From Halorussus aquaticus (GTDB taxonomy: Archaea > Halobacteriota > Halobacteria > Halobacteriales > Haladaptataceae), in the NCBI RefSeq assembly GCF_024218795.1, contig NZ_CP100400.1, forward strand, positions 2,108,001-2,172,000: 64,000 nt of DNA, read 5' to 3'. The notes below the pieces were generated by a model that did no database searches, had not been told where the DNA came from, and worked only from the letters and a program-made list of their open reading frames with translations. Positions 11,938 to 19,238 of this stretch are shown here, in pieces. The position numbers were made by a program, and so were the translations under genes. Numbering within the stretch: the stretch's first letter is position 1; the number at the start of each line of letters is the position of its first letter.

Positions 11938-13038
11938 TCACAGTGCGTGCACCTCCCGCTTGCGGAGCAGGTAGAGGAAGAACGGCGCGCCGAGGAACGC
12001 GGTCACGATGCCGACCGGGAGTTCCGCCGTGCCCGACCGCGCCACGGTGTCGGTGGCGACGAGGAACGTCGCGCCAGCGAGCGCCGACGTGGGGAGCAGG
12101 ATTCGGTGGTCCGGGCCGACCAGCAGTCGCATGACGTGGGGCACCACCAGTCCGACGAACCCGATGACGCCCGTGACCGCCACCGCCGCGCCCGTCATCA
12201 CGCTGGCGACCGCCAGCAGGAGGCGCTTGGTCCGCTCGACCTCCACGCCGAGCGCGTGGGCGTCCTCCTCGCCGAGCAGGAGGACGTTCAGGTCCCGGGC
12301 GTAGGCCAGCAGGACCGCGAACCCGATGACCGCGACCGGGAGGACGAGTCGCACGTCCCCCCACGACGCGAGGTGGAGGTGGCCCATCAGCCAGAACACC
12401 GCCCGCTCCATGCTCTCGCCGGTCTGGAGGAGCAGGAACGAGACCACCGCGCCGAGGAACGTCTGGACCGCCACGCCCGCTAGCAGGAGAGTGGCGACCG
12501 GCGTCCGGCCGTCCTCGGTGGCGAGCGCGTAGACCCCGAACGCGGCCGCGATAGCGCCGACGAAGGCGGCGGTCGGGAGCGAGACGGGGACCGCCAACGG
12601 GAGCGCGATGGTCGCCACCGCGCCCACCGCGGCGCCCGACGAGACTCCGATTATCGAGGGGTCGGCCATCGGGTTCCGGAAGAACCCCTGCATCACCACG
12701 CCCGCCGTCGAGAGCGCCAGTCCGACGACCGCCCCGAGCGCGATTCGGGGCAGGCGGAGCGTCATCACGATGGTCCGGGCGGTGTCGGGGACGGCGAAGT
12801 CGAATATCGACGCGAACTCGACCGTCGGCGCGGGCGTCGTGACGGCGAGTCCCGCGATTCGGAGCGTCCGGTCGGCGACGCCGACCCCCGCGGGCACCGC
12901 GAGCGCGTTCAGCAACACCTTCGCCACCACGAGGTAGTCGATGGGCACCGGGCCGATTGCCGCGCTCGCCACGACGACGACCGCCAGCGCGGCGGCTAAT
13001 CCCGACGACCAGCCGACGACTCGTGCACCCTGCCGCAT
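11938..13038 (-). CDS. btuC: ABC transporter permease, BtuC/FecCD family
   Basis: A 366-residue membrane permease of the FecCD/BtuC type that forms the translocation channel for corrinoids or Fe-chelates. About ten hydrophobic segments are visible, with the family stretch [32 protein letters not shown] (about 105-135) and the later coupling region and [12 protein letters not shown]. The frame is open far upstream (to 13587), but the start at 13038 ([10 protein letters not shown]) gives the normal length and leaves a 61-base divergent spacer to btuF. The transporter partners are btuF (divergent) and btuD (downstream). B12 versus siderophore cannot be decided from the permease alone. Confidence 0.88.
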
Positions 13039-13052
13039 CACCTGAAAGCCAG

Positions 13053-13080
13053 TTTGCTTTAGGTAAATACTTATTGGACA
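13053..13080. promoter_or_regulatory. AT-rich divergent promoter between btuC and btuF
   Basis: The 61-base spacer contains TTTAGGTAAATACTTATT, the only AT-rich stretch nearby, placed about 25-40 bases before each start. It can serve as TATA for both directions. TTAGGT also matches half of the palindrome bound by haloarchaeal DtxR-type metal regulators, but the second half is poor. Confidence 0.5.
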
Positions 13081-13099
13081 CGGTCGGAGTGGGGAACGC

Positions 13100-14260
13100 A
13101 TGAGACAGAAGGCCACGAGCGTATTTGCGGTACTGTTGTTGCTCGCGGCGGGCGTCGCCCCGGTGGGTGCGACGGCCGTAACCGGGACCGACGCCGACGT
13201 CGGGACCGAGGTCCGAGCGAGCGCGGCGCAGGCGGACTGTTCGTTCCCCGTCAACGCGACGGACGCGACGGGAACCGAAGTGACTGTCGAGCAGAAGCCC
13301 GAGCGAGTCGTCACGCTCTCGCCGAGCGCGGCCCAGACGATGTGGGAGATCGGCGGTAAGGAGCAGGTCGTGGGCGTCTCGCAGTACGCCTCGTATCTCG
13401 AGGGAGCGGACTCGCGCACCAACGTCTCGGGCGCTGGACAGACGCAGGTCAACGTCGAGAAGGTCGTCTCGACGGAACCCGACCTCGTCCTCGCACCGAA
13501 CGTCATCTCGAACGAGACGGTCCAGCGACTCCGCGAGACCGGACTGACCGTCTTCCGGTTCGGATTCGCCACCTCGGTCGAGGACATCTACGCCAAGACC
13601 CGACTGACGGGGCAACTCACCGGGAACTGCGAAGCGGCTAACGAGACGGTCGCGTCGATGAAAGACCGAATCGAGACCGTCCGGCAGGCGGTCGAGAACT
13701 CCGAGCGACCGCGCGTGTTCGTCTCGGTGGGCGGCGGGTACACCGCCGGTGCGGGCACCTTCATCGGCAACATGGTCGAACTCGCCGGGGGAACGAACAT
13801 CGCCGCCGAGGCGAACATCTCGGGCTACGGCCAGATAAGCGAGGAGGTCATCGTCAAGCAGAACCCCGAGTGGATCGTTCAGATCGGCCAGTACGGCGTC
13901 TACCCGAAGACCGACGCCTACAACGGCACCGCGGCGGTGAAGAACGATCAGGTCATCACGGTCACTAACGAGAACGTCAGCCAGCCAGCACCGCGCGTCG
14001 TCAACGCCGTGGTGCAGATGGCGAAGGCGTTCCACCCCGAGGCGTACGCGGAGGCCAACGCCACGACGACGACCGAGGCGACCGAAACGACGCAGATGAC
14101 GACTGACGCGCCCGAGACGACCACCGACGAGGGTGCGATGCAGGCGGAGACGACGACGGCGACCGCGACGGACGGGTCGTCGGGGAGCATCCCCGGATTC
14201 GGCGTCCCCGCGACGCTCGCGGCGCTCGCCGGTGCGGCCCTGCTCGCGCGTCGTCCCTGA
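13100..14260 (+). CDS. btuF: corrinoid/siderophore-binding protein with PGF-CTERM anchor, BtuF type
   Basis: The 386-residue extracytoplasmic substrate-binding protein of the btuFCD importer. A secretion signal covers residues 1-25, followed by an N-terminal lobe ([19 protein letters not shown], about 60-78) and second lobe joined by a helix as in cluster A-II binding proteins. A Thr/Glu-rich linker (about 320-355) leads to the archaeosortase signal: [19 protein letters not shown] then RRP, which is a PGF-CTERM tripartite tail. Many NxT/NxS sequons (NATDAT, NVS, NETV, NIS, NGT) suggest N-glycosylation. It is divergent from btuC. Confidence 0.87.
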
Positions 14261-15228: not shown

Positions 15229-18042
15229 CTATCCCGCTGTCGCCGCCGTCGCGTTCTCCGTCGGGAACTCGACGACCGCGGGGTCGGTGACTATCTCGCC
15301 GTCGGGGTCGAGATACAGCGTATCGACCTGCCCGCCGGACTCGACGAATCCGAACGTGCGGTCGCCGTCGGTGTCGCGGTGGGCCGCGGCGAACACCACC
15401 TGCTGGCCGGACAGCGACTCGTTGACCGGCACGGGCACGTCCTCGTACTCGCCGGGAGCGAGGTACTCCGAGACGCCGACGAGGTTCCCGCTCCGGTCGT
15501 AGACCGCGACGAACCCGCCCTCGGGCAGGTCTGCGGTCGCAACGGTGACCTGCCCGTCGGCCGTCTGGTTGGTGAGGTTGACGGCCGCCGAGTCGCCGAT
15601 TACTGTGGTCGTCGTGGTCGTGGTAGTCGTCGGCTGTTCGGTTGTCGTGGTCGTCTGTGCCGTCGTGGTTGTCGTGGTCGGCTGAGTCGTGGTAGTAGTT
15701 GTTGCGGTCGTCGTGGTTGTCGTGGTTCGTTCTGTAGTCGTGGTCGTCTGGGTGGTGGTTGTCGTCGGTTGCTCGGTGGTTGTGGTGGTCTCAGTCGTCG
15801 TTGTCGGTTGTTCGGTCGTAGTGGTCGTGGGCTGTTCGGTCGTAGTGGTCGTGGGCTGTTCGGTCGTAGTGGTCGTGGGCTGTTCGGTCGTCGTAGTCGT
15901 CTGTGGCGTCGTCGTAGGCTGTTCAGTCGTCGTGGTCGTATCCGCCTGAATCTCGGGTTGAGCGGTCGTGGTGGTGGTCCGAGTCGTGGTCGTCGGTCGC
16001 TCGGTCGTCGTCGTGGTCGTCGGAGTCCCGGTAGTAGTCGTTTCGGTCGTCGTGGTGGTCGGCGTCGCAGTGGTCGTCTGGGTCGTCGTGTCCGGTTGCT
16101 GGGTGGTCGTCGTGGTCGTCGTCGGTTGCTCAGTGGTGGTCGTGGTCCCTGTAGCGGTCGTCGTGGTCGTATCGGGAACCGTCGTGACGACCGGAGTCGT
16201 CGTCGGTCCGGGCGCGGTCGTCGTCTCCGTCGTCGTGGTCTCCGGTTCCGGAGCGGTCTCGACGACCTCCGTCGCGACCGCTGCGGCCGTCTCGCGGAGT
16301 TGCGCGGGGTCGGCCTCCGGTGACTCCGCGACGACCTGCGTCGCCTCTTCGGCACCCTCGGCTGCGGCCGTCGCGATGGTCTGCGGGGCGGTCACGTCGG
16401 CTTCCACCGCGGCCGCGGCCGCGCCGACCGCTGCGCCCTGCGCGACGGCGAGCGTCTGGGCCGGGTCGAGCGCCTCTATCTCGCCGAGTTGCTCGACGGT
16501 CCCGGCCGAGGCACCGTTCGCGGCCGCCTGAATCTGGACGACGCTCGCGGTTTGGCTCTGGGAGACGGCCCCCGTGGCGGCTCCCTGCGCGGCGACCTGT
16601 ATCTGGGTCACGTCCACCTGCTGGCGCTGGCTGGCGACGACCGCACCGTCGGCCGCCCCCTGCGCGGCGGCCTGAATCTGGGTGACGCTGGCGTCCTGCG
16701 ACTGGACGAGTGACCCGTACGCCGCGCCCCGACACGCGGCCTGCACCTGCTGGACGTTCACGCTCTGGACCTGCGTCACGCCGCCCTTGGCCGCGCCGAG
16801 CGCGGCGGCCTGCACCTGTCGGACCGAGACCGACTGGCGCTGGACGGTGGCCGCGAGCGACCCGGCGGCCGCGCCCTGCGCGGCGACCTGAATCTGGACG
16901 ACGTTGACTATCTGGACCTGTATCACGGTCACTTGGAGGAGCGCGCCGCGGGCCGCACCGAGCGCGGCGGCCTGCACCTGCTGGACGGACACCTGCTGAA
17001 TCTGGGTGAGTATCGCGCCCTGCGCGGCACCCTCGGCCGCCAACTGAATCTGCTCGACGGTGACGCGCTGGGTCTGGCTGACCGCCCCGGTCGCCGCGCC
17101 CCTGCACCCGGCCTCGACCTTCTCAGCGGGCGCTTCCTTCGGTTCTTTCACGCCGCCCTTGGCCGCGCCGAGCGCCGCGACCTGTATCTGTTTCACGTCG
17201 GCGCGCTGGACTTGCACCAGCGCCCCGGACGCGGAGCCTCGGGCCGCCGCCTGAAGTTGCGACACCTCGACGCGCTGGCGCTGGGCGAGCGACCCGTACG
17301 CCGCGCCCTGTGCGGCCTCCTGAACTTTGCCGACCGCGTCGACGTCTCGGCGAACCGCCGAGCGCGACGCGCCTTCGGCCGCCGCCTGCGAGGCGAACTG
17401 AATCTGGGAGACGCTGGCCTGCTGGCGCTGGGCCACCGCGCCGTGGGCCGCGCCGTAGGACGCGCCCTGAATCTGGGCGACGTTCGCCTCCTGCGTCTGT
17501 ACCAGCGCACCGCCGGTCCCTCCCCGGACCGCGGCCCGGATGGGGGCGACGGTGGGGCCGCGCTCGGCCGCCTGCGACTGGAAGTGCAAGAGCGCGCCGT
17601 GGGCCGCACCGCGCGCGGCGACCAGCAGTTGCGCGACGTTCACGTCGGCCTCGCGCTGGGACGCCGCGACCGCCCCGCGAACCGCCGCCTCCCGTCGCTC
17701 GGGCGTCACGGTCGCGCCCTGTATCTCGGCGAGTTGCGCGCCCTGACGCGCCCCGAGCGCGGCCGCTTCTCGCGGCGTGAGGTTCCCCACGTCCTGACGC
17801 GAGAGCGGACCCTCGACCACGTCGAACTCGGGACGGTCTGTTACTGTCTGGGGGAGCGTCTGCGGTGCGTCGAGTGGTTCGGACCCGCTGGTTCGTGAGG
17901 CGTCAGTCCGCGAGTCGTCGGTCGCCGCTTCGTCGCCGAGACGGTCGGCGTCGGCCGGGCCGCCCACGGCGGGCGGGGCGAACCCGGCGGCGAGCAGCGA
18001 GACGACGACGATCAGTACCGTGAAGCGTCGGAGCGATGGCAT
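15229..18042 (-). CDS. secreted Gln/Ala/Gly repeat protein with Thr-rich stalk and DUF7282 domain
   Basis: A 937-residue exported protein of unknown function. Residues 1-25 are a Sec signal. Residues about 95-517 contain some 18 degenerate repeats with a 23-residue period: QIQ(V/A)AA.GAA.GA followed by a short strand-like spacer VxQxQxAxV; lengths vary from 23 to 28. Residues about 597-814 are low-complexity TTTTEQPTTTT, a likely O-glycosylated extended stalk. Residues about 815-937 are a beta-rich domain matching haloarchaeal DUF7282 (PEGGFVAVYDRSG, GVSEYL, DTDGDRTFGFVESGG). No C-terminal membrane anchor is seen, so it is secreted or held by other means. The start MPSLRRF at 18042 begins the signal peptide; upstream codons lack one. 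Confidence 0.8.
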   Translation of the reverse strand: MPSLRRFTVLIVVVSLLAAGFAPPAVGGPADADRLGDEAATDDSRTDASRTSGSEPLDAPQTLPQTVTDRPEFDVVEGPLSRQDVGNLTPREAAALGARQGAQLAEIQGATVTPERREAAVRGAVAASQREADVNVAQLLVAARGAAHGALLHFQSQAAERGPTVAPIRAAVRGGTGGALVQTQEANVAQIQGASYGAAHGAVAQRQQASVSQIQFASQAAAEGASRSAVRRDVDAVGKVQEAAQGAAYGSLAQRQRVEVSQLQAAARGSASGALVQVQRADVKQIQVAALGAAKGGVKEPKEAPAEKVEAGCRGAATGAVSQTQRVTVEQIQLAAEGAAQGAILTQIQQVSVQQVQAAALGAARGALLQVTVIQVQIVNVVQIQVAAQGAAAGSLAATVQRQSVSVRQVQAAALGAAKGGVTQVQSVNVQQVQAACRGAAYGSLVQSQDASVTQIQAAAQGAADGAVVASQRQQVDVTQIQVAAQGAATGAVSQSQTASVVQIQAAANGASAGTVEQLGEIEALDPAQTLAVAQGAAVGAAAAAVEADVTAPQTIATAAAEGAEEATQVVAESPEADPAQLRETAAAVATEVVETAPEPETTTTETTTAPGPTTTPVVTTVPDTTTTTATGTTTTTEQPTTTTTTTQQPDTTTQTTTATPTTTTTETTTTGTPTTTTTTERPTTTTRTTTTTAQPEIQADTTTTTEQPTTTPQTTTTTEQPTTTTTEQPTTTTTEQPTTTTTEQPTTTTETTTTTEQPTTTTTQTTTTTERTTTTTTTATTTTTTQPTTTTTTAQTTTTTEQPTTTTTTTTTVIGDSAAVNLTNQTADGQVTVATADLPEGGFVAVYDRSGNLVGVSEYLAPGEYEDVPVPVNESLSGQQVVFAAAHRDTDGDRTFGFVESGGQVDTLYLDPDGEIVTDPAVVEFPTENATAATAG
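15809..15900. repeat. perfect 24-base tandem repeats inside the Thr-rich stalk
   Basis: Three exact 24-base units (15809-15832, 15833-15856, 15857-15880) are followed by a partial fourth. Each unit encodes eight residues of TTTTTEQP type. Being in frame and exact, they suggest recent expansion by slippage and probable length variation among strains. Confidence 0.8.
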
Positions 18043-18218: not shown

Positions 18219-19238
18219 ATGGAGAATCGAACGCGCGTGTTCGCGGCCGTCGGGTTGACCGTCACGATGTTCCTTCTGGTCCAACTCGGCGCGCTAGTGC
18301 TGGTCGAGCCGTTCCAGCAGGCGGGGTATCAGCAGGTCGAGAACCCCTCCGACCCGACGAACAGTCTGGTCTACGTCGGGGCGGTGCTGGTCATGACCGG
18401 CATCATGCTCGCCATCATCAAACTCGACGTGCAGTGGCTGCTCCGCGGGGCGCTCATCTTCACGAGCGGTCTGCTCTCGTGGTACGTCTTCTCGGTCGTG
18501 GTTCCGGCGTGGCTCGTCGTCTCGGTCGGCGGCGCGCCGGTCAACGTGGTCGCGCTGGCGGCCGCGGGCGCGGTCGCGCTGGCGCTGGCGGTCCACCCCG
18601 AGTGGTACGTCATCGACGCCGCGGGCGTCCTGATGGGCGCGGGCGCGGCCGGACTGTTCGGCATCAGTTTCGGCCTGCTCCCAGCCATCCTCCTGCTGAC
18701 CGTGCTGGCGGTCTACGACGCCATCAGCGTCTACGGCACCGAACACATGCTGACGCTGGCCTCGGGCGTGATGGACCTCAAGATTCCGGTCATCCTCGTG
18801 ATTCCGCTCTCGGCGTCCTACTCGTTCCTCGACGACGACGGCGGGGCCGGGGCGGGGGAGACCGGTGGAGAGAGCGAAGCCAGCGCCGCGGACGGCGGGC
18901 GAACGGAGGAGGAGACTGCGGCCGAGGCCGACCGCCCGGAGATGGACGAGCGCGACGTCTTCTTCATCGGGCTGGGCGACGCCGTGATGCCCTCGGTGAT
19001 GGTCGCCAGCGCGGCGTTCTTCGCGCCGCCGGAACCGCTGGTCTCGGGCATCGCGCTGAACCTGCCCGCGCTGACATCGATGGTCGGCACGATTGCGGGT
19101 CTGCTCGTCCTCCTCTGGATGGTCCTGAAGGGGCGGGCGCACGCCGGGCTTCCCCTACTGAACGGCGGCGCTATCGGCGGCTATCTGGTCGGCGCGCTGG
19201 CCAGCGGGATGACTTTGATGCAGGCGCTGGGACTGTAG
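18219..19238 (+). CDS. presenilin-type (A22) intramembrane aspartyl protease
   Basis: A 339-residue polytopic protein of the archaeal presenilin/SPP homologue family, which cleaves transmembrane segments of other proteins. The catalytic motifs are YD at 166-167 (LAVYDAISVYG) and GLGD at 251-254 (FFIGLGDAVMP), with the C-terminal P-L motif (GLPLLNGG) near 312. About nine hydrophobic segments surround them. The loop between the aspartates (about 205-245) is acidic and Gly/Ser-rich, a halophilic variant. It is divergent from the repeat-protein gene, separated by about 175 bases, but no functional link is shown. Confidence 0.88.
   Translation: MENRTRVFAAVGLTVTMFLLVQLGALVLVEPFQQAGYQQVENPSDPTNSLVYVGAVLVMTGIMLAIIKLDVQWLLRGALIFTSGLLSWYVFSVVVPAWLVVSVGGAPVNVVALAAAGAVALALAVHPEWYVIDAAGVLMGAGAAGLFGISFGLLPAILLLTVLAVYDAISVYGTEHMLTLASGVMDLKIPVILVIPLSASYSFLDDDGGAGAGETGGESEASAADGGRTEEETAAEADRPEMDERDVFFIGLGDAVMPSVMVASAAFFAPPEPLVSGIALNLPALTSMVGTIAGLLVLLWMVLKGRAHAGLPLLNGGAIGGYLVGALASGMTLMQALGL

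Follow-up and report, generated by a model that had tools for sequence, protein, structure and literature searches.

The gene at 15229-18042 (minus strand, ATG at 18042) of the window, by which is meant the whole 64,000-nucleotide stretch of Halorussus aquaticus DNA that was analysed, encodes a secreted protein of 937 residues with orthologues in Halorussus and beyond. The locus raises the question of what a long tandem array of 23-residue units does in an exported archaeal protein, and whether the array is a folded domain, a fibre-forming element, a receptor or simply a spacer. To our knowledge, archaeal matrix proteins are largely unidentified.

The domain order in the 937-residue protein is signal peptide, repeats, threonine-rich stalk and DUF7282. 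Read directly from the sequence, residues ~1-27 (MPSLRRFTVLIVVVSLLAAGFAPPAVG; 17962-18042, minus strand) form a Sec-like signal peptide. The repeat domain occupies residues 86-575 (16318-17787, minus strand) and consists of 18 recognisable units and two degenerate N-terminal units. It is followed by a Thr/Glu/Pro/Gln-rich stalk, residues ~596-815 (15598-16257, minus strand), which differs strongly among near-identical orthologues and whose coding sequence contains a 24-bp tandem array (15809-15900, 3.8 copies, 97% matches). Residues 819-924 (15271-15588, minus strand) belong to DUF7282 (PF23951), with a profile match above the curated cut-off (E=1e-26, 93.8 bits compared to a cut-off of 27). 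The first-pass annotation, which had described a secreted protein with a Thr stalk, a C-terminal DUF7282 domain and 24-base tandem units in the stalk DNA, was correct on each of these points. The family combines an export signal (by reading) with extracellular partner domains, the sequence marks of a surface or matrix protein.

The 18 units were located at residues 128-564 (cores 136-564), with the two more degenerate units at ~88-127. The consensus of the unit is L-x-Q-x-Q-x-V-x-V-x-Q-I-Q-x-A-A-x-G-A-A-x-G-A, and the core spacing is 29,23,23,26,23,23,23,23,24,28,26,23,23,25,23,26,23, in agreement with the initial description of about 18 units, mostly of 23 residues, with a Q-x-Q start and a GAA.GA segment. 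The 23-residue periodicity far exceeds chance. The self-identity at a lag of 23 was 0.28, compared to 0.128 +/- 0.015 in shuffled sequences (maximum 0.178, 2000 shuffles), and strict 15-residue cores occurred 13 times in the real sequence and not once in 2000 shuffles. Conservation at unit positions 1-11 alternates with a period of 2 (power 0.76, p=0.002), a pattern typical of an extended stretch that buries one of its two faces, here L1, Q3, Q5, V7, V9 and Q11. In the GAA.GA part, the hydropathy tends to a helical periodicity (p=0.07 here, p=0.009 in the Haladaptatus dialect described below) and the variable positions, 10, 14, 17 and 21, line one exposed helix stripe. An odd/even (46-residue) super-repeat is not claimed, as two alignments disagreed (p=0.014 to 0.09 in one, no signal in the other).

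The repeat domain is nearly neutral (6.7% acidic and 6.5% basic residues, -0.002 charge per residue), while the remainder of the protein is acidic (-0.105 charge per residue). The direction of this contrast is kept in the relatives examined, and the Haladaptatus domain is slightly basic. An acidic surface is a normal need of secreted haloarchaeal proteins, among which neutral charge is unusual. The neutral charge fits either a compact scaffold made largely of Ala, Gly and Gln or an exterior that meets acidic partners.

The first-pass annotation knew of no named family with this repeat, and no clear match to a known domain appeared in the libraries searched. A known family for the repeats was ruled out by searches of Pfam, NCBIfam, PHROGs and PDB sequences, none of which gave a match to the repeat domain, and the unit has no description in the family libraries or literature searched. 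The repeat-domain model also had no match in a viral fold library at E<=0.001. DUF7282 matched solved structures only at E>0.05.

Three known architectures invite comparison. Alpha-solenoids (TPR, HEAT, ARM, TAL; reviewed in PMC11514114) have units of about 34-42 residues with two or more helices. The present array resembles them in that tandem helical units are predicted to form an elongated scaffold, but where a helix-turn-helix of about 30-42 residues would be expected, its unit has only 23 residues, with a GxxxG zipper, a single predicted helix and an extended segment. No alpha-solenoid profile (TPR/HEAT/ARM/ANK/TAL) in Pfam or NCBIfam matched the 937-residue protein or 35 members of the family. 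Foldseek with the whole-domain model returned weak matches to TALE and designed helical repeats; the best query-normalised TM-score among the PDB matches listed was 0.21, too low for a structural match, although the value was obtained with a provisional model and for a class of fold in which long solenoids of differing curvature score low. Leucine-rich repeats are alpha/beta solenoids with units of 20-29 residues. The likeness lies in the unit length, in the pairing of one extended with one helical segment and in a polar residue that follows the extended part and is conserved, but the present units have no leucine pattern (LxQxQxVxVxQIQ compared to LxxLxLxxN) and no strands in the model. No leucine-rich repeat profile in Pfam matched the repeat domain, and no such structure was among the fold matches listed. 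The glycine-zipper domains of Pfam (Gly-zipper_YMGG and kin) share the Ala/Gly helices rich in GxxxG; they are short membrane-associated hairpins, whereas the present array is long and extracellular, and only one of the 35 members was matched, at E=0.039. Surface proteins of a solenoid-like kind are already known; the 23-residue unit, judged by its sequence, appears to be novel.

An AlphaFold2 model of the 544-residue domain, made with 35 relatives, had a pLDDT of 88.8 and a pTM of 0.85, with one helix per unit on positions 9-23 and no formal strands. When a 7-unit fragment was modelled with the same sequences, the pLDDT was 36 and the pTM 0.22. Because the fragment was not confidently folded, we regard the overall fold as provisional: the units may pack properly only in the complete domain, or else the confident model cannot be relied on for tertiary detail. 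Helices in the repeat domain are likely according to the model, from which their predicted tertiary packing also derives. The glycine-zipper helix suggested at the outset for the GAA.GA segment is supported in outline by its predicted helicity, as is the strand-like nature of the V.Q.Q spacer by the period-2 conservation. The earlier concern that structure prediction might show only disorder was not borne out, since the whole-domain model is not disordered, though the fragment leaves the tertiary fold provisional. It is possible, although we consider it somewhat doubtful, that the unit represents a new class of solenoid, in which a glycine-zipper helix would be paired with an extended, Gln-bearing return segment, buried Gln ladders would replace the leucine core, and the whole would fold in saturated brine without the usual acidic surface.

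The profile search of haloarchaea that had been proposed as a check established that the repeats define a real family, found in 120 of the 392 Halobacteriales genomes searched. The matches span five families, and 78 of the positive genomes are Natrialbaceae. An independent profile built from the Haladaptatus dialect was positive in almost as many genomes (118 of 392), and a protein search with the repeat domain as query yielded 27 of 59 relatives. Relatives were found in Halorussus, Haladaptatus, Halomicrococcus, Natrinema, Natrialba, Natronorubrum, Halovivax, Halosimplex, Halorientalis, Halobaculum and Halorarius. None was found outside the order among 295 genomes drawn from the phylum, nor in phages or viral contigs, and the only two plasmids with the repeat were both haloarchaeal. 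Most genomes that carry the repeat domain have a single copy. The repeat-domain tree groups the sequences by host family, which suggests that descent has been mostly vertical.

The comparison of repeat number among orthologues revealed that unit number and spacing are nearly fixed. An array that opens with the spacing 23,23,23,26 recurs in almost every locus across families, and 17-19 units were detected in every orthologue of this type from Halorussus and Haladaptatus, 13-15 in Natrialbaceae, with two conserved longer gaps, and 9-11 in TSP3-fused proteins. The units share 60% identity with their positional counterparts in orthologues, compared to 47% with other units, and the best match was in the same place in 14 of 16 cases. 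The repeats thus read as an old array of nearly fixed register. Relative to the nearest orthologue, which is 98% identical, the repeat domain has a dN of 0.009 and a dS of 0.144 (dN/dS ~0.06) and is under strong purifying selection, while DUF7282 evolves more rapidly (dN 0.049, dS 0.115). In the stalk, this relative differs by many indels. The C-terminal part is swapped among lineages, where 1-3 copies of DUF7282, TSP3_bac, CARDB, CAP, beta-helix/NosD or no recognised domain may be present. Since the repeats are nearly fixed and under purifying selection while the stalk is free to vary and the C-terminus is exchanged, the repeat domain is the conserved core of the protein and DUF7282 is optional. 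The view of DUF7282 as a defining cap consequently has to be abandoned, and the strain-level length variation that had been expected holds for the stalk, which differs in length between close relatives, but not for the repeat array. A single-copy extracellular domain under such selection and without a library match probably has a specific role in the envelope or matrix.

Among haloarchaeal surface proteins with DUF7282, the 937-residue protein is alike in carrying one such domain and differs in its repeat domain, which is absent from the other such proteins that were read; conversely, DUF7282 is missing from many relatives of the repeat domain. The H. aquaticus genome has 13 DUF7282 matches, several adjoining Thr-rich stalks, and a DxDxD-like loop in the domain (HRDTDGD..FGF) hints at calcium binding. 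Several relatives in Halorussus, Halorarius, Halorientalis and Halobaculum end in a transmembrane anchor, a TM segment with a basic tail. The sister Halorussus orthologues (L040-L045) have the TM segment, but the 937-residue protein and its 98% relative do not, and no remnant of a lost anchor was seen in another frame downstream of the stop (15229 end). The retention of this particular protein at the surface is therefore putative.

The secreted anatomy, the TM anchors in relatives and the fusion to extracellular modules lead us to favour, with a probability of roughly 45%, an exported surface or matrix protein in which the repeat domain is a rigid scaffold or binding rod on a flexible Thr stalk, with exchangeable C-terminal modules and a conserved surface that faces a partner. 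The literature searched contains neither proteomic evidence that places the repeat protein at the surface or within the matrix nor genetic evidence on it. According to this proposal, the active part would be the N-terminal domain, in which about 18-20 units of 23 residues follow one another in tandem. Every unit would contribute one short helix (positions 9-23), close-packed through G18, G22 and alanines, and an extended Gln/Val segment (positions 1-8), and together these would make up a scaffold that is long, rigid, solenoid-like and almost without charge. The stalk, whose threonines are probably O-glycosylated, would keep the scaffold apart from the C-terminal modules, here DUF7282, which may tie the protein to the envelope or matrix. 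The scaffold could then offer a partner a conserved face whose register is fixed. This partner, perhaps a glycan, a protein of the envelope or a second molecule of the same kind, would have kept the order of the units unchanged.

A second dialect of the repeat was found in Haladaptatus, which also has proteins with units NQNVNINVIQNAALGAAQGAVQGAV, a 21-26 residue spacing and Pro/Glu/Thr tails. In these proteins (L057-L062, for example L057:8581-10908), an invariant Asn occupies alternating positions. Strong matches to the NQNVNINVIQNAALGAAQGAVQGAV dialect came only from the genus Haladaptatus, and some copies start with Tat-like instead of Sec-like signals. One copy (L059, G026:C7:35161-36477) is interrupted by a TAA stop, so it is probably a broken paralogue. 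The gaps in the Natrialbaceae proteins (L080-L103), which follow the sixth unit, are 31 and 39 residues long and have QEQRVEVEQHQRVTIKQIQ-like alternating segments that replace the regular spacers.

The main rival to the scaffold is that the repeats self-assemble as an extracellular, possibly amyloid-like fibre, with the Q.Q.V.V or NQNVNINV segments stacking between molecules as matrix fibrils. The extended, alternating Gln/Asn-rich segments, the extreme NQNVNINVIQN dialect of Haladaptatus and the neutrality of a domain exposed to molar salt are all consistent with such a fibre. In addition, the biofilm matrix of Haloferax volcanii gives amyloid-type staining with Congo red and thioflavin T, although HVO_1403 was the only candidate gene named (PMC4180959). 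However, AlphaFold2 gave a helical model of the whole domain with high global confidence, no curli or other amyloid repeat model was among the Pfam matches of the 937-residue protein and 35 members, and the fixed register with its unit-specific conservation suggests that the units fold together as one domain and are not exchangeable building blocks of a fibril. We therefore consider the fibre unlikely.

The repeat gene is divergent from a gene on the plus strand (18219-19238) for an intramembrane protease of the presenilin/signal-peptide-peptidase type (PF06550), and the protein could be a substrate or partner of this enzyme, for example by being released from the membrane. The divergent pair is kept across Halorussus and recurs in a different family, in Halobaculum saliterrae (L107:2154-4422), and the TM segment of the sister-species orthologues would suit such cleavage. 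Against this, the 937-residue protein and its 98% relative have no TM segment to cleave, no such neighbour occurs in the Haladaptatus and Natrialbaceae loci, and divergent neighbour genes are often unrelated, which makes the relationship improbable.

Still less probable is that the repeat domain is a receptor that captures the ligand of a vitamin importer encoded next to it, which would be B12 in Halorussus and biotin in Natrialbaceae. The Halorussus orthologues adjoin btuF/btuC (11938-14260 here), and one Natrialbaceae gene is divergent from a BioY-like gene (L082:3547-4263) in a locus whose two flanks are common to ~20 Natrialbaceae loci. However, BtuF, BtuC and BioY were assigned by reading, not by profile, the vitamins and gene orientations differ between the lineages, the Halorussus importer has its own BtuF, and no importer of this kind lies beside the Haladaptatus, Halosimplex, Halorientalis or Halobaculum genes in the loci examined. 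The vitamin-importer neighbours are possibly a coincidence.

That the repeats serve only as a passive spacer of low complexity, lengthening the molecule, as their tandem nature and Ala/Gly/Gln-rich composition might suggest, is scarcely credible in view of the strong purifying selection, the fixed unit number and the unit-specific conservation, the variation expected of a spacer being shown by the stalk and not by the repeats.

The 23-residue repeat is a possible design scaffold, and, as a natural module that is neutral in charge yet functions at molar salt concentrations, it would be useful for testing the solubility of halophilic proteins. The smallest member seen is a stand-alone protein of 227 residues with 7 units and a Tat-like signal, from one genome of the genus Halorussus (L056:7986-8669), and it offers a natural minimal construct for structure work.
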